Of a stretch of 64,000 nucleotides of DNA, positions 17,481 to 46,387 are shown one piece after another (positions within the stretch are counted from its first letter, which is position 1; every line of letters begins with the position of its first letter). A program made the translations under genes and the position numbers. This DNA comes from Thioalkalivibrio sulfidiphilus HL-EbGr7 (GTDB taxonomy: Bacteria > Pseudomonadota > Gammaproteobacteria > Ectothiorhodospirales > Ectothiorhodospiraceae). The notes under the pieces were generated by a model. That model did no database searches. It saw only the letters and a program-made list of their open reading frames with translations, and was not told the origin of the DNA. The DNA lies in contig NC_011901.1 in NCBI RefSeq assembly GCF_000021985.1, positions 2,800,501-2,864,500 on the forward strand, read 5' to 3'.

Positions 17481-17633
17481 CTAGTGTCCTGTCTGACAAT
17501 TATCTTGCCATTCAGCGTGGCTGTGCGGCGTTGCGCACCTTGCCAAGGGCTTGCCATTGGCTGCGGTGCGCGCCTTGCCTTGGCGCTTTTGCGAGGCTCT
17601 GAATGGCAAGATAATTGTCAGACAGGACACTAG
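17481..17633. mobile_element. MITE-like element with 35-bp perfect terminal inverted repeats
   Basis: A 153-bp segment is bounded by perfect 35-bp inverted repeats (17481-17515 and 17599-17633), each starting CTAGTGTCCTGTCTGACAAT. The interior is GC-rich, itself partly palindromic, and has no credible gene. The outer CTAG could be a target duplication or part of the ends. The right end reaches into the neighbouring PEP-enzyme gene and supplies its stop codon. Size and structure fit a non-autonomous transposon mobilised in trans; no transposase is in the window. Confidence 0.75.
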
Positions 17634-38396: not shown

Positions 38397-38412
38397 TTTG
38401 GGTTAGGGAGAT

Positions 38413-38450
38413 TTAACGCGGAGGGCGCGGAGGCGCAAAGGGCGCAGAGG
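38413..38450. repeat. Single GCGGAGGCGCAAAGGGCGCAGAGG arm
   Basis: One arm of the 8-9-nt word family seen at 16821-16911 and 59659-59855, without a visible inverse partner. It lies just after lipA and before the hairpin at 38464-38510. Confidence 0.7.
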
Positions 38451-38463
38451 TTGTTGAACGACG

Positions 38464-38510
38464 AAGGGGTCGGTGACAAATGAGAACCATTTGTCACCGA
38501 CCCCTTTTTG
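38464..38510. terminator. Strong hairpin terminator at the lipA/island junction
   Basis: A 17-bp perfect stem (38466-38482 with 38488-38504), extendable by A-T pairs, has a 5-nt loop and is followed by TTTTT on the plus strand. It would end lipA transcription. The arm starts with GGGGTCGGTGACAAATG, a sequence style typical of dispersed REP-type hairpins, so it may also be a mobile relic at the island edge. Confidence 0.8.
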
Positions 38511-38523
38511 CCTTTTTTGTTTC

Positions 38524-39444
38524 CTAGAGCACCTGGGCTCGCACGACGGGGTGGTCAAGAAGGGGCTCCAAGCCGATGAAATCACGCAGATGGCCAGCGC
38601 CCGTCTGTGTGCGGCCTTGGACAGCAAGCATAGCCGAGGCAGAGGCGATAGCTGCCGTCGCCCCGTAATCGGAGGCCAGACTTAACATTCGGCTCGCCAA
38701 CACATTGCCGTCCCGAGTTAGGGCCACGGCGCCTAATTCGATGGCTTCGACACCAGACTCCCCGGCTTGCGCCTTCCTCCGTGCAATGGTGTCGCGCAAG
38801 CGGCTGTAGATCTGCGGCGCAGTACCGCGGAGCAACGCGAGAATGCTGATGATCGTATTCATGTGCCGACTGTCGAATCCAGTCACGAGTCTCACACTCA
38901 CTGCTCCGTCCAGGAATTCGAGTTCCGGGCCATCCAGGTCGAACAGCTTTCGGATTGATGGCGGCTCTCCTGGACGCTGGGGATAAGGCCGCTGTTTGAA
39001 TTCGCATCCGGAGCGGGTGAGAAGGTCAATCATTTCACGGGTTCCCTGTTCACCTGCGGTTCCGGCACTGCTCTGTAAGAGGCTGACCTGGATACAAGCA
39101 GCCTTGGGGACCCGTGCCTGCATGTCGCGCGCGAGTAGGCCGGTCAACCCCGGGGAGAGTCCTGCCATCGCCATCATACAACGGCCCTGCTGCCTCGCCA
39201 GGTCATCTAGCGCGAGCAATTCGCGAATCAATCCGCGATCGACAGTCACATCGATCACATGGCAACCGCAATTCAGGGCTCGCCGATGCAACGCTGCGTC
39301 TCGCAACGGAGCGGCATTGATGATCGCATCGAGACCCTCAGGGGATGCATCGAACCCTGCGGCCCGCACACTGTTTTGGCCCGCCAGGATTCGCAGGATC
39401 ATCGCACCCAGTCGGCCCTGTGCACCGAAGACACCGATCTTCAT
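38524..39444 (-). CDS. Saccharopine dehydrogenase-like oxidoreductase
   Basis: 306 aa from the ATG at 39444. The N-terminal Rossmann fold 'MKIGVFGAQGRLGAMILRIL' has GxxGxxG. 'VIDVTVDRGLIRELLALDDLARQQGRCMMAMAGLSPGLTGLLARDM' follows the saccharopine reductase pattern. It is distal in a leftward run with a LysE exporter and a methyltransferase; codon use is less GC-rich than lipA. A role in modifying or deaminating an amino-acid-like compound that the neighbour exports is inference. Confidence 0.7.
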   Translation of the reverse strand: MKIGVFGAQGRLGAMILRILAGQNSVRAAGFDASPEGLDAIINAAPLRDAALHRRALNCGCHVIDVTVDRGLIRELLALDDLARQQGRCMMAMAGLSPGLTGLLARDMQARVPKAACIQVSLLQSSAGTAGEQGTREMIDLLTRSGCEFKQRPYPQRPGEPPSIRKLFDLDGPELEFLDGAVSVRLVTGFDSRHMNTIISILALLRGTAPQIYSRLRDTIARRKAQAGESGVEAIELGAVALTRDGNVLASRMLSLASDYGATAAIASASAMLAVQGRTQTGAGHLRDFIGLEPLLDHPVVRAQVL

Positions 39445-39476
39445 GGAGAACTCCAATACCAACCCCTATTTGTCTG

Positions 39477-40103
39477 TCATGCCTTCGCGACCAGGTACGC
39501 TCCGACACCGATCATCAGACCGCCCGCAGCAACCTTTGCGCCGCGCCCAGCCCCGCGCCCGCCTGCCAGGCTTGCCACTCTGACTCCGGCGTATGCATAA
39601 CCAACTTTCACACCGCCAACCGCAAGCAGGGTTATCACCACAATCGAGGCAAGGTCTGTTGCAGATATGGAGGACAGATCGACAAACGCGGGGAACAGGC
39701 TTGCGTAGAAGAATATTGCCTTGATATCCCCCAGGGTCAGGATGAGGCCAGAGAAAAAACTCACCGTCAAAGATGACGTGCTTCGATCACGCGTACCCGC
39801 CAGTGTTGGCCGCTTGGCTCTCAGCAGAGACAGACCGAACCAGATCAGGTAGGCCCCTGCCAGGTACTTGACGACCACAAAGAATCCCCCCATCGCCTCC
39901 GCCATCACCGCCAATCCAAGCACCGCCAGACAAACAAACACCAGGTCGCCCAACACAATCCCGGCGGCGACTGCTGCCCCATGCGGGAATCCTGCGGTTG
40001 ATGAACGAGTAACAACCAGAGCAACGCTGGCACTTGGAACCAGCGCCAAAAGGGACATGACTGAAAACAGAAGGATTACATCGAGGAGACTCATCGTCGT
40101 CAT
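39477..40103 (-). CDS. LysE-family amino acid exporter
   Basis: 208-aa membrane protein with about six helices of the LysE/RhtB family: 'FSVMSLLALVPSASVALVVTRSSTAGFPHGAAVAAGIVLGDLVFV' and 'KYLAGAYLIWFGLSLLRAKRP' are the typical first and middle parts. It would export an amino acid or derivative. It ends 32 nt before the oxidoreductase gene and probably shares its transcript. Confidence 0.85.
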   Translation of the reverse strand: MTTMSLLDVILLFSVMSLLALVPSASVALVVTRSSTAGFPHGAAVAAGIVLGDLVFVCLAVLGLAVMAEAMGGFFVVVKYLAGAYLIWFGLSLLRAKRPTLAGTRDRSTSSLTVSFFSGLILTLGDIKAIFFYASLFPAFVDLSSISATDLASIVVITLLAVGGVKVGYAYAGVRVASLAGGRGAGRGAKVAAGGLMIGVGAYLVAKA

Positions 40104-40136
40104 TCAAGGAAAAGGTGACATCTTTATCATTCAGAC

Positions 40137-40832
40137 TCACACCACAGCGACATTTGTCTTGCAGATGAGCAGCAGTGATAAGGGATTGCCGGTATCGGGG
40201 TGAAGCGGTTCCTGTATTTCTGTGACCTGCCACTCAGCCGTTTGCAACACGTCCACCCACGATGCCAGGGTGCGGAAGTACCACGGCATCGGTTCCGCGA
40301 AGCATTGCTCGAAGCCACTGAATGTTTCGATACGCCAGGCATTGCGGTAACCGGCCTCCCCACACGCACTCCAGGGATGGACTGTCTGAATGAACAGCAC
40401 ACCATCCGGCGCGACCACACGTCGCAGCGCTGAGAGCAGTGGCACCACGTCCTCTTCCAAGAGGGCGAAGTTACAAACCACGGCGGAATAGTCCTTGCCG
40501 AACTGTTCAGGCTCTGCCACCAGTTCGGCATAGGTGATCTCATGAAAAATACCCGACCCCTGCTGGCGTGCGGCTTCGACGAGGCGGGCTGAACCATCCA
40601 CGCCGACCACCTCTGCACCCGCCGCGGCCAGTACACGGGCGAGCCACCCTTCCCCGCACCCGACATCCAGCACCCGCTCGGGAGAGCGGGCGAGTACGGC
40701 CTGAACAATCGAGGCATCTGTCGCAATGCGCCGGCTCTCGATCCTGTGTTCGCGTACGGCCGTGCTCCATGCATCGGCATTGGCGTTCCAGCTGGCGCGA
40801 AGCTGCTCCGCAGCATCAGAATCTCGGCTCAT
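40137..40832 (-). CDS. Class I SAM-dependent methyltransferase
   Basis: 231-aa methyltransferase. Motif I is 'VLDVGCGEGWLARVLAAAGAEVVGVDGS', followed by 'YSAVVCNFALLEEDVVPLLSALRRVVAPDGVLFIQTVHP'. The substrate is unknown. It is the first gene of a leftward group with the LysE exporter and the oxidoreductase. Upstream lies a cluster of TTTGGGACA hairpin repeats and the broken last integron cassette. No attC site separates these three genes, so they are not recognisable cassettes. Confidence 0.85.
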   Translation of the reverse strand: MSRDSDAAEQLRASWNANADAWSTAVREHRIESRRIATDASIVQAVLARSPERVLDVGCGEGWLARVLAAAGAEVVGVDGSARLVEAARQQGSGIFHEITYAELVAEPEQFGKDYSAVVCNFALLEEDVVPLLSALRRVVAPDGVLFIQTVHPWSACGEAGYRNAWRIETFSGFEQCFAEPMPWYFRTLASWVDVLQTAEWQVTEIQEPLHPDTGNPLSLLLICKTNVAVV

Positions 40833-40868
40833 CGCACATGGCCCTGATCAAACAATGCTCATTAGGCC

Positions 40869-41015
40869 TGCTTTGGGACATCCACAGTCCAGGATTATGG
40901 GTGTCCCAAACCGCCCCCAGTCCAGGATTAGTGCTTTGGGACATCCACAGTCCGGGATTATGGGTGTCCCAAACCGCCCCCAGTCCAGGATTATGGGGAT
41001 TATGGGTGTCCCAAA
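40869..41015. repeat. TTTGGGACAYCC hairpin repeat cluster, 2.5 copies
   Basis: Two copies of a 63-nt unit begin at 40869 and 40932, and a partial third ends at 41015. Each can fold by pairing TTTGGGACATCC with GGGTGTCCCAAA across about 15 nt (one G-T pair). A single related word lies at 45702-45720, on the other side of the integron. Short open frames in this stretch reflect the repeat and are not taken as genes. Confidence 0.85.
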
Positions 41016-41674
41016 CCGGCCGGCATCCATGCCAACTTGAACTTATCGACATTTTGTCTTCGCCACAGAGCCAATAATTCCTCATACTTAAAGGAGTCAA
41101 TGGCCTGCTGCAACTGAACGGCGTACTCCATCTGGGCCCGTTCGTGTGCCTCCGGTGGTTCACTGTATCGTTTTGCATCTTTTATTGCCTCGCATGACCA
41201 CCAAGGCCGATTGGTGAACCCGATATGCAGGAGTGCAATGCTCAAATCCAGACTGTCCAGTTGGGTATCGGGTTTGGCTACGTATTCGACAACAAAGTCA
41301 CGGACTGTGCTCACAGATTCAAACCAGGGCAGGATGCTGTCTTCAACGACTTTGGTGACGCTCTGTATGGCGATTGTGGCAGTTGCCTCATCTGGTCCGG
41401 CCCAATTGATGTCTCTGTCGGGCGGTGCATCGACTCTTTTGCCTATGCGATAAGTATCAATATCCATGAGCGGGTCGGAAAGCAGGTTAATGTAGTAATG
41501 AACATAGAAATCGTGCCCACCCCACTTCGACATCTGAAAACCAACGGAGTCGACCATCTCTCTGCGGATTCTCAAGAAGTGCTTAGGCCGATACCGATAG
41601 AAGCCCGCTTTGGTGAGAACAGGAGCTAGATGTTCAGTGATGGCAGATTGGACGAAGTCTTTCTTTGAGGTCAT
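41000..41674 (-). CDS. Integron cassette 4: DUF4304-like protein, damaged 3' end
   Basis: 224 aa from the ATG at 41674, 10 nt inside the cassette boundary. 'HLAPVLTKAGFYRYRPKHFLRIRREMVDSVGFQMSKWGGHDFYVHYYINLL' resembles DUF4304, a family common in mobile elements with no known function. The last residues (G-L-G-H-P) and stop are written by the TTTGGGACA repeat. No attC with the matching R'' box (GCCCAAC) follows. The cassette has lost its end, so it should no longer be excisable. Confidence 0.7.
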   Translation of the reverse strand: MTSKKDFVQSAITEHLAPVLTKAGFYRYRPKHFLRIRREMVDSVGFQMSKWGGHDFYVHYYINLLSDPLMDIDTYRIGKRVDAPPDRDINWAGPDEATATIAIQSVTKVVEDSILPWFESVSTVRDFVVEYVAKPDTQLDSLDLSIALLHIGFTNRPWWSCEAIKDAKRYSEPPEAHERAQMEYAVQLQQAIDSFKYEELLALWRRQNVDKFKLAWMPAGLGHP

Positions 41675-41683
41675 GGTATTTGC

Positions 41684-41755
41684 GCCCAACGTTGTAGCTG
41701 TGCGGCGCAAACGAAGCGCCGCGTAGTTTGCGTCCGGACGAGCGACTTGTTAGTG
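41684..41755 (-). other. attC site of cassette 3
   Basis: A 72-bp imperfect palindrome read on the minus strand. The R'' box CACTAAC (41755-41749) overlaps the stop of cassette 3, and the outer R' box GTTGGGC (41690-41684) belongs to cassette 4. The inner arms (CTCGTCCGGACGCAAAC with GTTTGCGCCGCACAGC type) pair around a GCGGCGCTTCG centre. It is closely similar to the attC at 42827-42898. Confidence 0.9.
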
Positions 41756-42652
41756 GTCTTTGTGCTCGAGCTGGTGAACTTTCTTTTCAAGTCGACGAAC
41801 TTCCTTAAACATTACACGTAATGCATCACGTTCTTGCGCACTCTGATCAGGCTCTTCACCTTCTCCCCTTTCCTCTTCGTCAGGCATGACGAAATCAATT
41901 TCGCCTCCTTTTTCTACAAAATCTACTAATTTCTTTATTGCGCTACTTAATTCGTTAACCTTGTCACCTTCCGCCTTTCTATCCAAGCCAATTTCATCAA
42001 TATTCTTAGTAATTATTGTTTCAACACCATTTTGTTTTTCAGCCTCCGCTGCTTCCATTAGGCTTTTCTCGGCTTCGTCATTAGCAAGTTCTAATGCACG
42101 TACTTCTTGAGCTTTTTTCTTTATATCATAGACTTTTTCAATGACTTTCAACGCGTCCATGATTATTGCGCTTACAGTTTTGGCGATTGGATAGGCGCTT
42201 AATAAGCTAACAATCAATGACCCTTTGCTGGCGCCAACCACTTGAATATCTTCTGGCGCCTGACCATGCGCCATTCCTATTCCACGCCCTATATCCCACC
42301 ATGTTTTACCCCAATCTTTTAATTCGGTAAGATTTGAAAGGTGTGCCTCGCGGGTAAAGTGAACTCGCAATAAAACAGCATTGCCAATTTCGGTTACTTC
42401 CTCAGTGGTAATTATTTTATTAAGTAGCTCTCTAGTTTTCTGAGACCACTGAACGCCTTCGCTAATTTTTTGGATTGACTGTTGAACTCGTTCTGCTGCG
42501 TGAGCAATATCTAATGCATTTCTAAATAATGTATCTTCTAATAGATCAACGCCTTCCTGCCCCACGTTGTCTGCGATACCAATTTCTTTCAGAACTTCGA
42601 TTTGACCATTTGATAACTCAACTAAAGCAACACTCTGTAATGCTTTTATCAA
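41750..42652 (-). CDS. Integron cassette 3, gene b: helical protein of unknown function
   Basis: 300 aa, starting with TTG at 42652, 3 nt after the stop of the small gene a. The central 'GASKGSLIVSLLSAYPIAKTVSAIIMDALKVIEKVYDIKKKAQEVRALELAN' combines a short hydrophobic stretch with a long helix. The C-terminal 100 residues are acidic, ending in a coiled coil ('FKEVRRLEKKVHQLE'). No known domain recognised. It is AT-rich compared with the host. The TAA stop is inside the attC R'' box, as in typical cassettes. Confidence 0.75.
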   Translation of the reverse strand: MIKALQSVALVELSNGQIEVLKEIGIADNVGQEGVDLLEDTLFRNALDIAHAAERVQQSIQKISEGVQWSQKTRELLNKIITTEEVTEIGNAVLLRVHFTREAHLSNLTELKDWGKTWWDIGRGIGMAHGQAPEDIQVVGASKGSLIVSLLSAYPIAKTVSAIIMDALKVIEKVYDIKKKAQEVRALELANDEAEKSLMEAAEAEKQNGVETIITKNIDEIGLDRKAEGDKVNELSSAIKKLVDFVEKGGEIDFVMPDEEERGEGEEPDQSAQERDALRVMFKEVRRLEKKVHQLEHKDH

Positions 42653-42655
42653 TTG

Positions 42656-42808
42656 CTATTTTTGCTCTTCAAAAGGTTGTTTTTGCTGATTTGGCTGAGT
42701 GTTGACTTGGAGCACTTTATGCAATTGCTGATACTTTTGCACAATTTGTTTATCTACAATCTCGGCTTGTATCCAGCTTGTTAAATCATATAGTTCTTCT
42801 ACTTGCAT
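42656..42808 (-). CDS. Integron cassette 3, gene a: 50-aa protein
   Basis: A 50-codon gene beginning MQVEELYDLTSWIQAEIVDK and ending in a Gln/Lys-rich tail. The ATG at 42808 is preceded by AAGGGA at about 8 nt and stands 19 nt inside the cassette boundary. Its TAG is 3 nt from the TTG start of gene b, so the two are translationally linked. No known family recognised. It gives this cassette a two-gene layout. Confidence 0.65.
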   Translation of the reverse strand: MQVEELYDLTSWIQAEIVDKQIVQKYQQLHKVLQVNTQPNQQKQPFEEQK

Positions 42809-42826
42809 AAGAGTTTCCCTTTTGAC

Positions 42827-42898
42827 CACTAACGTTTAAGCTGTGCGGAACAAACGAAGCGCAGCGTAGTTTTTGTCCGCACGAGTGCCTTGTTAGGC
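42827..42898 (-). other. attC site of cassette 2
   Basis: A 72-bp imperfect palindrome. On the minus strand R'' is GCCTAAC (42898-42892) and the R' at the far end, GTTAGTG (42833-42827), belongs to cassette 3 and is complementary to cassette 3's own R'' (CACTAAC), exactly as expected if the cassette came from a circle. Inner arms CACTCGTGCGGACAAA and TTTGTTCCGCACAGC pair. Confidence 0.92.
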
Positions 42899-43705
42899 AT
42901 TTACCACCTTAGATTTCGGAATAAATCTAAGTTCTATATCAGCCGGACAATTATCTACCTTTCGGCGCCACATTCTCTCAACGCGATCTAACTGACTATC
43001 TTCGAAATAGTAAACAACCACAATAATTAATTTAAATTTAGACTCGAAGAACTTGTCGGCTATGACAGCGTGATATAAAACCCGGTCAAGAATCATACTG
43101 GACGGGAAAGATGACCTTAAGACTTTAATTTCGAGAAAGGTAAATGGCTCCACAGTGTGGAGCATCGCATCAAACTGCGCATCTGTTCCATCTATGCCTA
43201 TATTAGGAGAGGCGTTGACTTTAAACTCAGAAGAAATCATTTGAATTACCGCGCTTTCAATTGTACTCAATTCTTCTCTAAAGCGACGATGCTCCTCTAT
43301 TTTAGAATCTCTGCCTTTTACCGCTGAAGATTGGCTACTAGAGACAGATTCGCATTTTATTTCAACCTCTTTATCATCTTCTACTAATGACTCCTTTACC
43401 TCCTTGTCCAGTTTCTTTTCTTGCTCTTCAGGACTTAATGTTCGCAGGAATGATTTATCATCTTTAAAATCTCCCGGCGCATAAAGTTTTCCATGATGGC
43501 TTTTTACTAACCAATAGAAAGAAACTAAGACCATTATTGGAAAAATAACTATAAAAATAATCAAAGGCCATCGTTCTGCGGCCGTCAATTTTTCAGCAGC
43601 CGAGTTCAGTAACAAGCTAGCAAATCCGTATATGAGCGAAATAAAAAGCGCAATGATTCCTAATGGATTTCTTGCAAATTCTTTCGCACCCTTTAGAAAG
43701 TCCAT
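42893..43705 (-). CDS. Integron cassette 2: membrane-anchored PD-(D/E)xK nuclease-like protein
   Basis: 270 aa. Two transmembrane helices at about 16-34 and 47-67 are followed by a charged linker and a C-terminal domain with 'DAQFDAMLHTVEPFTFLEIKVL'. D179 and E192-I-K194 have the spacing and strand context of a PD-(D/E)xK nuclease core. The following 'ILDRVLYHAVIADKFF' and 'FKLIIVVVYYF' also suit that fold. This is the layout of some membrane-tethered effector or defence nucleases; no family name is recognised. The gene stop overlaps the attC R'' box. Confidence 0.7.
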   Translation of the reverse strand: MDFLKGAKEFARNPLGIIALFISLIYGFASLLLNSAAEKLTAAERWPLIIFIVIFPIMVLVSFYWLVKSHHGKLYAPGDFKDDKSFLRTLSPEEQEKKLDKEVKESLVEDDKEVEIKCESVSSSQSSAVKGRDSKIEEHRRFREELSTIESAVIQMISSEFKVNASPNIGIDGTDAQFDAMLHTVEPFTFLEIKVLRSSFPSSMILDRVLYHAVIADKFFESKFKLIIVVVYYFEDSQLDRVERMWRRKVDNCPADIELRFIPKSKVVNA

Positions 43706-43727
43706 AATCTCTCCACAGTGCTTGTAT

Positions 43728-43811
43728 GCCTAACGCCGCCAGCACGTGCATCTTTGTAGTGTAGGCGCAGCCGGAACGAAAAAGCCGTCGCTGTGCCTGG
43801 CATTGTTAGGT
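43728..43811 (-). other. attC site of cassette 1
   Basis: An 84-bp palindrome. On the minus strand R'' is ACCTAAC (43811-43805) and R' is GTTAGGC (43734-43728). The R' pairs with cassette 2's R'' (GCCTAAC). Inner arms CAGGCACAGC and GCACGTGCTG type sequences pair. It is longer and less similar than the other two attC sites, so cassette 1 probably came from a different array. Confidence 0.9.
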
Positions 43812-44435
43812 TTTATCATTCCGGCACTTCGCTTGTATCCGTTTTATTAGCGCATTGAAATTTATTCCCAACCCCATGAAGTTTGGTTTCAGATCGACGA
43901 TATCGTTTGCTCCAGGCAAAATTTCCGGGGTTTTAACCCGATCATTGCGCAGGTGAATAGCGAGCTCCGCGTGAACTGAAGCCAATGCGCGCCGCGTTGA
44001 ATTTTGTACCCCTGCCTCGTACAGCGATGACGCAATATCGGTTCTATATGCTCGACGGTCAAACTTTAGCCCGTAGCGTGCTGCCGCCCGTTCAACACCT
44101 CCAAGGAAACCTTCAAATCTATGAAGATACCGCTCCCCCTCAAAGTAGCCTGCAACATGCTTCTTGGCGCGCTCCAGCTCATCCGTGCTATGGAATCCAC
44201 CGGAGGTGCTTAGGATTCGCGATATCTCAGCATTAAACCGCTTTTCTTTGCATGAAATGACCGAAACCATAATATTCGCCACACTCTGAAAATCGGGTAC
44301 ACGAAGCCGCCCGCTTTCGTATTTGATATTCGAATACAGATCATTAACTTCTTTGCGAGTCTCGCTCTCGCAGTCTTGGTCAATGTAAGCAAGCTTCGTT
44401 TTAATGAGCTTGTTGATTTCTGAATCAGTTTGCAC
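43806..44435 (-). CDS. Integron cassette 1: unknown helical protein
   Basis: 209 aa with a GTG start at 44435, 15-21 nt inside the attI-proximal boundary and with AGGAGA upstream. It is soluble and mainly helical ('ELERAKKHVAGYFEGERYLHRFEGFLGGVERAAARYGLKFDRRAYRTDIASSLYEAG'), without a recognised motif. Being first in the array it is the most recently inserted cassette by the usual logic, and the one most exposed to the cassette promoter. The stop TAA lies in its attC R'' box. Confidence 0.7.
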   Translation of the reverse strand: MQTDSEINKLIKTKLAYIDQDCESETRKEVNDLYSNIKYESGRLRVPDFQSVANIMVSVISCKEKRFNAEISRILSTSGGFHSTDELERAKKHVAGYFEGERYLHRFEGFLGGVERAAARYGLKFDRRAYRTDIASSLYEAGVQNSTRRALASVHAELAIHLRNDRVKTPEILPGANDIVDLKPNFMGLGINFNALIKRIQAKCRNDKT

Positions 44436-44449
44436 CAGCTCTCCTGGAA

Positions 44450-44592
44450 ACCTAACTAGATTTCTGCCATAAAAGTGGCGTGTTGTAACACGACATTATC
44501 GTCGTATAATCTTCCTGCGGCTCCGTAACCCCTTGATTCAGCACGATACGAGCCGCAGGAACACTGCGATCATTCACGGAGGAAACACTGCC
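44450..44592. promoter_or_regulatory. attI region and intI promoter
   Basis: The first-cassette junction is GTTAGGT (minus strand, 44456-44450), complementary to cassette 1's R'' (ACCTAAC), so the attI crossover lies here. Rightward TTGTAA (44483-44488), a 16-nt spacer and TATAAT (44505-44510) form a good promoter for intI. A GGAGG site (44578-44582) precedes the intI ATG. A leftward cassette promoter is not obvious by eye. Confidence 0.75.
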
Positions 44593-45564
44593 ATGGAGGC
44601 ACCCCGTCAACCGCGGCTGCTCGATCAGGTGCGCGAGCGCTGTCGCGTCAGGCATTACAGTCTGCGCACCGAGCAGGCCTATACCCACTGGATCCGCCGT
44701 TACATTCTGTTTCACGGCAAACGCCATCCCCTCGACATGGGGGCGCCCCAGGTCGAGGCATTCCTGACGCACCTGGCGGTCCAGGAGGACGTGGCGCCCT
44801 CCACCCAGAACCAGGCGCTTGCGGGCATCCTGTTTCTCTACCGCGATGTACTGGGTATCGAGCTGCCCTGGCTTGACGGCGTGACCCGTGCGAAGAAACC
44901 ACCCAGACTCCCCGTGGTGCTGAACCGGGACGAGGTCCGTGCCCTGCTTGCGCAGCTTGATGGCATGTACTGGCTGCTTGCGAGCCTGATGTATGGTTCC
45001 GGCTTGCGGCTGATGGAGGCGCTTCGCCTGCGCGTGAAGGATGTGGATCTTGAACGCCGGGAGGTGACCGTCCGCGAGGGCAAGGGGGGCAAGGATCGGC
45101 GCACGATGCTGCCGGGCACGCTGGTGGAGCCGCTGACACGGCAGCGGGAGAAAGTGGCTGCGATCCATGCCCTTGACCGGGACAACAACCTGGCGGCGGT
45201 CTACCTGCCTCACGCCCTCTCGCGCAAGTACCCGAATGCGGGCAAGGAACTGGCCTGGCAGTTTCTGTTTCCTGCCAGCCAGCCGGGCATCGATCCACGG
45301 TCTGGTATCCGCCGCAGGCATCACCTCCATGAGTCGGCGGTGCAACGGGCCATCAAGGGGGCTGTGCGCGCCGCCGGTATCCTCAAACCGGCCAGCAGCC
45401 ACACGCTCCGCCACAGCTTTGCCACGCATCTGCTTGAGGACGGCTACGACATCCGTACCGTGCAGGAATTGCTGGGGCATAGCGACGTGCGCACGACACA
45501 GATCTACACCCACGTCCTGAACCGGGGCGGGCTGGCGGTGCGCAGCCCGCTGGATGGGGGCTGA
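44593..45564 (+). CDS. intI: Integron integrase
   Basis: 323-aa tyrosine recombinase of the IntI type. Catalytic residues: R139 ('[13 protein letters not shown]'), H270-TL-R273, H296 ('LLGHSDV') and nucleophile Y305 ('TTQIYTHV'). The IntI-specific extra helix region is present at about 207-229 ('[23 protein letters not shown]'), which separates it from XerC/D and phage integrases. The start at 44593 is chosen for its GGAGG site and normal length; 20 upstream residues are non-homologous. It is transcribed away from the cassettes, the standard integron layout. It looks intact and functional. Confidence 0.97.
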
Positions 45565-45701
45565 ATGAGCGGTGTGTGCAGGTGCCACCAGGACAAGACT
45601 CCCTTTGTACCTGCAGGGACTTTAGCCTCTGGTGACGCGGCATGGCAATCCCGGTGGAGATGCGACGCCCTGATACGCCGGGCGGGCGACCGAAGCGGGT
45701 A

Positions 45702-45720
45702 TGCTTTGGGACACCCATAG
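45702..45720. repeat. Solitary TTTGGGACACCC word right of intI
   Basis: GCTTTGGGACACCCATAG matches the arm of the 63-nt repeats at 40869-41015. It places related sequence on both sides of the integron. The rest of the 211-nt gap between intI and lipB shows no gene. Confidence 0.5.
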
Positions 45721-45751
45721 CTATCCCCCATGACGCTTCCGCGAGCACGGG

Positions 45752-45783
45752 CCATTCGCGGCGGGGTCGCCGCTCCTACGGGG
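45752..45783. repeat. REP-like GTAGGAGCGGC palindrome over the lipB stop
   Basis: On the minus strand CCGTAGGAGCGGCGACC and its imperfect inverse with CGCGAATGG have the structure of the REP elements common in Pseudomonas and relatives (GTAGGAGCGGC...GCCGCGAA). The TAG of lipB is part of this element. Confidence 0.65.
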
Positions 45784-46387
45784 TGAGGCTTTGCGTCAGT
45801 TTGTCTGCCACTGCCCTGCCCGCGGTTTCCACGTCCATCTCCACGCCGAGCGCCTTGAGTGAGGTGGTCTCGAGTCCTTCGTAACCGCAGGGGTTGATGC
45901 GCGCGAAGGCGGACAGGTCCGGGTCCACGTTGAGGGCGAGGCCGTGATAGCTGGCGCCGCGGCGCACCCGCAGGCCCAGGGCGGCGATCTTGGCGCCGTT
46001 TACATAGACACCCGGGGCGTCGGGCCGCGCCTCTGCCCGGATGCCGTGATCGGCGAGGAAGGCGATGACCGCCTGTTCCAGCAAGGTGACCAGGGCGCGT
46101 ACGCCCAGGCCGCGGCGGCGCAGGTCCACCAGCACGTAGAGCACCGCCTGGCCCGGGCCGTGGTAGGTCACCTGGCCGCCACGGTCCACGGGGATCACGG
46201 GGATCGGGCCGGGGTCGAGCACGTGCTCGGGCTTGCCGTTCAGACCCAGGGTAAAGACAGGGGGATGTTCCACCAGCCAGAGTTCGTCGGCGGTGGTCTC
46301 ATCGCGGGTATCGGTGAAGGCCTGCATGCGACGCCAGACGGGGTCGTAGTCGCAGAGGCCGAGTTGCTTGAGGATGATGTCGGGCAC
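45776..46387 (-). CDS. lipB: Octanoyl-[acyl carrier protein] transferase
   Basis: 203-aa LipB. It moves octanoate from ACP to lipoyl domains, the step before LipA. '[24 protein letters not shown]', the lysine of '[32 protein letters not shown]' and the catalytic Cys in 'INPCGYEGL' are all present. The stop codon is supplied by a REP-like palindrome. Next upstream is ybeD, across a word-repeat dyad. lipA is not downstream as usual, the integron island being there instead. Confidence 0.97.

Follow-up and report, generated by a model that had tools for sequence, protein, structure and literature searches.

A small chromosomal integron adjoining lipB in Thioalkalivibrio sulfidiphilus HL-EbGr7

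Layout of the lipB locus and its integrase

We are interested in a locus of Thioalkalivibrio sulfidiphilus HL-EbGr7 that an earlier note, made from the DNA sequence alone, had described as a divergent chromosomal integron with three AT-rich cassettes. The stretch analysed, here called the window, comprises bases 2800501-2864500 of the one contig of 3,464,554 bp that makes up the chromosome. The locus lies among housekeeping genes and adjoins lipB, and the flanking lipB, LysE and lipA genes are common to other members of the genus. It carries the integrase gene intI, an attI-side junction, three attC sites and four cassette genes (Table 1). All coordinates given in the earlier note for intI, the junction and the attC sites proved correct, as did the divergent arrangement, in which intI is read from the forward strand and the cassettes and attC sites from the reverse strand of a single-contig chromosome.

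Table 1. Features of the integron locus, with positions counted from the first base of the window.
Feature	Position	Strand	Basis
intI, integron integrase, 323 aa	44593..45564	+	TIGR02249, 477 bits; alignment with IntI4 (2a3v); six catalytic residues
attI-side R box GTTAGGT, cassette 1 junction	44456-44450	-	sequence and R-box pairing
Promoter-like pair TTGTAA-16-TATAAT, upstream of intI, in the attI region	44483..44510	+	consensus scan
Cassette 1 gene, 209 aa, function unassigned	43806..44435	-	open reading frame
attC1	43728..43811	-	17.8 bits, E 0.014; R boxes
Cassette 2 gene, 270 aa	42893..43705	-	alignment with relatives
attC2	42827..42898	-	34.2 bits, E 6.8e-7
Cassette 3 gene, 353 codons, codon 51 an in-frame stop	41750..42808	-	matches to a 346-aa relative
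attC3	41684..41755	-	25.6 bits, E 1.2e-4
Cassette 4 gene, DUF4304, no attC recognised behind it	41000..41674	-	PF14137, E 6e-16
Repeat cluster (TTTGGGACAYCC...), truncated array end	40869..41021
Lone copy of the TTTGGGACAYCC-cluster repeat, lipB side	45702..45720

The IntI protein scores above the 265-bit cut-off of the integron-integrase family TIGR02249, whereas the XerC and XerD models gave 142 and 139 bits, below their cut-offs of 335 and 330 bits, respectively. Its alignment with the structure of Vibrio IntI4 (2a3v) covers residues 10-321, including the stretch of residues ~206-227, which we take to be specific to integron integrases. All six catalytic residues are present (R139, K164, H270, R273, H296, and Y305); the reading frame is complete and the active site appears intact at the level of the sequence. 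The identity with IntI1 amounts to 54.4%.

We placed IntI in a quick tree of 87 proteins, composed of 80 relatives (the best 80 of 556), the window IntI, three genus integrases, IntI1 and two Xer proteins as the outgroup; 24 of the 80 relatives entered a careful tree of 29 proteins. In the quick tree, IntI falls inside the integron-integrase part, together with the integrases of two metagenome-assembled genomes, one labelled Thioalkalivibrio (L037) and the other Burkholderiales (L038). The careful tree supports this trio at 100/99, with a group of Rhodanobacteraceae/Lysobacteraceae integrases as its neighbour, and both trees place IntI outside the IntI1 branch. The family scores and the grouping thus agree with the proposal of the earlier note that the gene encodes an integron integrase and not a Xer or phage recombinase.

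A consensus scan of 44380-45800 found two promoter-like pairs, compared with 0.4 in shuffled sequences, and the TTGTAA-16-TATAAT pair recurs in L037 and L038. As an observation apart, the leader of intI contains an inverted repeat (CCTGCGGCTC ... GAGCCGCAGG, 44514-44553), which was not seen by eye in the L037 or L038 leader.

attC sites and cassette genes

To score attC sites, we used a covariance model (R2) of 18 sites, all from other genomes and hand-chosen from candidates, among them that of L038, the second-nearest integrase. R2 is not the published IntegronFinder attC model; it was used with one of its 17 pairs off by one column (7-135, which should be 7-136), and its E-values are rough. 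On the 64-kb window, with E<=10 and the filters switched off, R2 returned 12 matches, headed by attC2, attC3 and attC1. Scoring by an attC structure model had been set in advance as a check of the three sites, and all of them passed it, attC1 weakly. The next match (17491-17623, 15.8 bits) is a long near-perfect inverted repeat with the end boxes GTCTGAC/GTCAGAC, which we rejected as an attC site because the AAC and GTT cores are absent. A pattern search for textbook R boxes missed attC2 and attC3. With the folds held in the attC register, the bottom strand was better at all three sites, by 3.9, 0.2 and 5.6 kcal/mol.

Insertion of circular cassettes predicts that the R'' box of each cassette is exactly complementary to the R' box at its own upstream junction. 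The pairing on which the earlier note relied was indeed found without a mismatch for all of cassettes 1-3, whereas the partners in the array register differ by 1, 2 and 3 mismatches, none of the three being exact. The junction on the integrase side, GTTAGGT, has the GTTRRRY core of an attI site adjoining intI. The other arrays gave 20 exact pairs among 23 for the circular-cassette register against 19 among 39 for the array register, in a count limited to sites that have a textbook R box at either end and lie at most 2500 bases apart, and omitting 12 doubtful or differently oriented loci (L076, L084, L089, L091, L093, L096, L099, L100, L112, L118, L120, and L123). Because most of the circular-cassette pairs there are also exact, the pairing is a general rule of integron cassettes; it confirms the known biology and is nothing special to this locus. 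In L096 and L100, two distant relatives inspected by eye, attC-like sites lie downstream of intI in the same direction, reversed from the usual layout.

The AT-richness of the cassettes was borne out, with GC contents of 47.5, 38.4, 39.8 and 50.6% for cassettes 1-4 against 65.5% for the window. The count of three cassettes holds for those ending in an attC site, but the earlier note had overlooked a fourth, truncated cassette, the interruption of the cassette 3 gene and the repeats on either side of the integron. The DUF4304 gene of cassette 4 starts beside attC3 and ends in the repeat cluster; behind it, neither an attC-like match above 7.6 bits (38400-41300) nor the expected R'' box was found. 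The array consists of three full cassettes and a truncated fourth. With three attC sites, it lacks the large size expected of sedentary chromosomal integrons. Nor does it have the plasmid or transposon carriage and the resistance cassettes of mobile class 1-like integrons: it is chromosomal, no search aimed at transposases having been made, and the Pfam, NCBIfam and PADLOC scans found no resistance family among cassettes 1-4. Rfam gave zero matches in the window at gathering scores.

The search for relatives of cassettes 1-3 covered 274 class genomes, our own counted, which were sampled from a larger group; that for cassette 4 covered the retrieved integrase and genus loci. The cassette 1 protein matches no Pfam family and has zero relatives in the 273 other class genomes or the plasmid set. 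Whole or partial relatives of cassette 2 occur in three of the 273 genomes and three plasmid-set records, as well as in one viral contig and two records of phage H66; PHROGs gave a single match of unknown function (8.4e-10). Its N-terminal part is hydrophobic and conserved in the alignment with these relatives and may form two membrane helices, while its C-terminal half has a D...ExK pattern in common with a Vibrio campbellii plasmid protein, the phage protein being without the K. The cassette 2 product could therefore be a membrane-anchored PD-(D/E)XK-like protein. As the AlphaFold single-sequence models were of unusably low quality (mean pLDDT 51.4 for cassette 2 and 44.7 for cassette 3), the proposed nuclease rests on the alignment. 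Searches against solved structures (best E 0.25 for cassette 2 and 0.0093 for cassette 3) were not used either, and no convincing PADLOC match was obtained for any of the four cassettes (best E 0.015).

The cassette 3 gene spans 353 codons, counting its final stop, and codon 51 is a further stop in the same frame. Codons 1-50 match residues 1-50 of a 346-residue protein from another genome (58%), and the remainder matches the remainder of the same protein (44%). Since both pieces match one continuous relative, this copy is interrupted or only partly read. Two of the 273 other class genomes and one plasmid record contain relatives of cassette 3; one relative, of 353 residues, is carried by a Photobacterium plasmid.

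Related loci in the genome and the genus

The attC scan of the genome itself, in which 150 of 1083 candidates were scored so that sites may be missed, found at least six sites at E<=10. Two of them are attC2 and attC3, and attC1 is not among them. The other four lie elsewhere in four reduced loci, characterized by eye from their sequences and open reading frames: one with a C-terminal fragment of intI and one attC (L117), one with an intI bearing a large internal deletion (L163), one with cassette-like genes and an attI-like end in which no intI was seen (L164), and one with a toxin-antitoxin-like pair and one attC (L162). Beside the intI fragment of L117 (5332-9095, at 3.085 Mb) are ABC-three-component genes (CTD9, MC5, and an AAA ATPase), a defence-type set past which no attC was found.

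L163 is the counterpart of an integron in a near relative (G003), whose proteins neighbouring the window locus are 96-99% identical to ours. Between the two loci, identity amounts to 95.9% across 3263 bp of flank and to 88 and 90% in the two parts of the platform that are retained. Where G003 has ~1.1 kb of intI, our genome has 24 bases, and the similarity does not continue into the cassettes. The comparison shows directly that cassettes have turned over and an integrase has decayed between close relatives.

lipB was found in four of the five genus genomes, ours included. G003 has nothing like 40107-45747 except the repeats described below; the integron is absent, and the 485 bp between lipB and the LysE-like gene contain no attC-like match above 3.4 bits. 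In this absence and in the cassette turnover at L163, the comparison of close relatives, a check suggested by the earlier note, agrees with what is expected of an integron. A second relative (G004) has an identically oriented integron with attC matches next to lipB. The integrase there shares 59% identity with the window IntI and falls in another branch, together with that of G003. DNA similarity past the end of intI had first suggested that the two lipB integrases were orthologous, which we dropped because similar tails follow other intI copies and the tree rejected the grouping. The group of the window, G004 (L118) and G003 (L120) integrases was rejected by the approximately unbiased test (p-AU 6.9e-6), also with L037 and L038 added (0.0019), the tested groups having been chosen after the quick tree. 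The similar tails are found at 45565-45650, L117:9901-10016, L163:6311-6408 and L118:8849-8957, partly across integrase lineages. The integrases of the G004/G003 branch (L118:8934-10325 and L120:9557-10876) are much longer than usual. A 463-residue stretch of L118 has two matches to the SAM-like core-binding domain PF13495, as if doubled N-terminally, and the passages found in the literature on integron integrases with an N-terminal extension do not describe a doubled domain.

The corresponding gap of a third relative (G001, L159:8083-9438) holds two cassette-like genes, one glyoxalase-like and the other of the AadA type (AadA_C, E 1.5e-27), with one weak attC-like match of 10.4 bits. The AadA type is known from resistance cassettes, and G001 is an environmental genome. 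The lipA-lipB gap has thus held cassettes more than once, and not by simple descent of one integrase. The nearest integrases sit elsewhere, because none of the flanking genes of the window is found in the compared stretches of L037 and L038.

A 15-base repeat occurs in six copies in the window, on both sides of the integron. Genome-wide, this repeat (TTTGGGACAYCCAYA) has 11 exact copies at three places; it lies at the two window positions of Table 1 (40869-41021 and 45702-45720), at L162:4601-4646 and at L165:2622-5056. L165, away from any integron found, also contains many copies of TTTGGGACAYCCAYA with one mismatch. At the empty site of G003 the repeat is present in three copies.

Origin of the locus and known systems

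The locus is very likely a small chromosomal integron next to lipB, built by IntI-mediated insertion of circular cassettes at attI. We base this reading on the family score, alignment and tree of IntI, the ranking of the attC sites and the R-box register, and also on the AT-rich cassettes, the lack of the integron in G003 and the cassette turnover between our genome and G003. IntI would insert circular gene cassettes at attI by cleaving R' within its GTT core, and the attC sites of the cassettes would act as folded single (bottom) strands. The three complete cassettes and the fourth, since deprived of its far end, would all have been acquired in this manner. From the established biology of integrons, we infer that recombination uses the bottom strand, that the newest cassette is nearest to attI and that expression comes from the platform side.

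Several results weigh against the integron interpretation. IntI reached 368 bits with the narrower model NF011946, below its cut-off of 435 bits, and attC1 is weak, only 2 bits above the next R2 match. Unconstrained folds stand out only modestly from shuffled sequences (z-scores for attC1-3 of -1.59, -1.39 and -2.40 on the bottom strand and of -0.35, -1.78 and +0.18 on the top strand), and those of attC2 favour the top strand. Upstream of intI (44401-44650), four matches to the LexA box CTG-N10-CAG were found, zero of them exact; SOS control of intI is not supported because each carries one mismatch. The consensus scan found no minus-strand promoter-like site for the cassettes between attI and intI, the one at 45648-45619 lying past the end of intI.

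The integrase might have built the array long ago and no longer work on it, leaving a frozen relic in decay. We regard this as possible, if on the doubtful side: the interrupted cassette 3 gene, the missing attC of cassette 4 and the reduced state of the four other integron-type loci fit such decay, but the intI frame is complete with its six catalytic residues, and the promoter-like pair of intI is kept in two relatives. The relic explanation concerns present activity and is compatible with an origin by IntI-mediated insertion.

Two further proposals are unlikely in our view. In the first, the block between the dispersed repeat copies was moved or removed by recombination between repeats and not by integron action. 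The copies on both sides of the block, their dispersal in the genome and the three copies where G003 misses the integron speak for it. Repeat recombination could account for how the block was lost and its far end truncated, but not for the internal R-box register, and in L165 the repeat stands apart from every integron found. The second, a joint reading of the locus that we put forward with much reservation, regards the lipA-lipB gap as an integron site that stayed in use while its integrase was exchanged between lineages, and the cassettes as unrecognised anti-phage genes, cassette 2 being a candidate membrane-anchored PD-(D/E)XK-like nuclease. The N-terminal anchor region of cassette 2 is common to the phage H66 protein, the viral contig and the plasmid-borne proteins, and the Photobacterium plasmid relative of cassette 3 is near restriction-modification genes. 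That a Xer- or phage-type recombinase merely sits beside chance inverted repeats is scarcely credible, since the closeness of the attC1 score to a non-attC match and of the folds to shuffled sequences is countered by the family scores, the tree, the attC ranking and the R-box register.

As a small integron, the locus offers a clean test case, in which members of the genus have the integron present, reduced or gone at the same positions. In these non-pathogenic, soda-loving sulfur bacteria one can follow how integrases are exchanged, how cassettes turn over and how integrons decay. Two cassette proteins with few or no relatives in the searched sets may serve in, for example, phage defence, a role of integron cassettes reported in recent studies that PMC12444791 cites. 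The main text of the genome paper (PMC3072093) contains neither the word "integron" nor "integrase", and a literature search for Thioalkalivibrio and integron returned nothing on the subject as judged by title. The genus is absent from the main text of the IntegronFinder 2.0 paper, tables aside; genome-wide surveys may well have counted the locus.

The layout of intI, attI and cassettes is that of class 1 integrons, and the integrase identity with IntI1 was given above. Unlike those, the locus is chromosomal, has no recognised resistance family in cassettes 1-4 and encodes an IntI outside the IntI1 branch. Vibrio chromosomal integrons, whose IntI4 aligns with our integrase over almost its whole length, are known for large arrays, unlike the three or four cassettes found here. 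The sedentary Xanthomonas integrons at ilvD, as described in PMC12444791, are alike in having a chromosomal platform at a housekeeping gene and cassettes mostly of unknown function, in the loss of integrase function in some species and in cassette clusters without an integrase elsewhere in the genome. The same source describes exchange of intI at a fixed site, with two X. arboricola strains that are 97.1% identical in ilvD but 68.2% in intI. The Thioalkalivibrio locus differs in its host, its position between lipA and lipB and its short array. It adds one more member, with a truncated far end, to a type of system already known, for which close parallels have been described in Xanthomonas, the exchange of the integrase at a fixed position among them.

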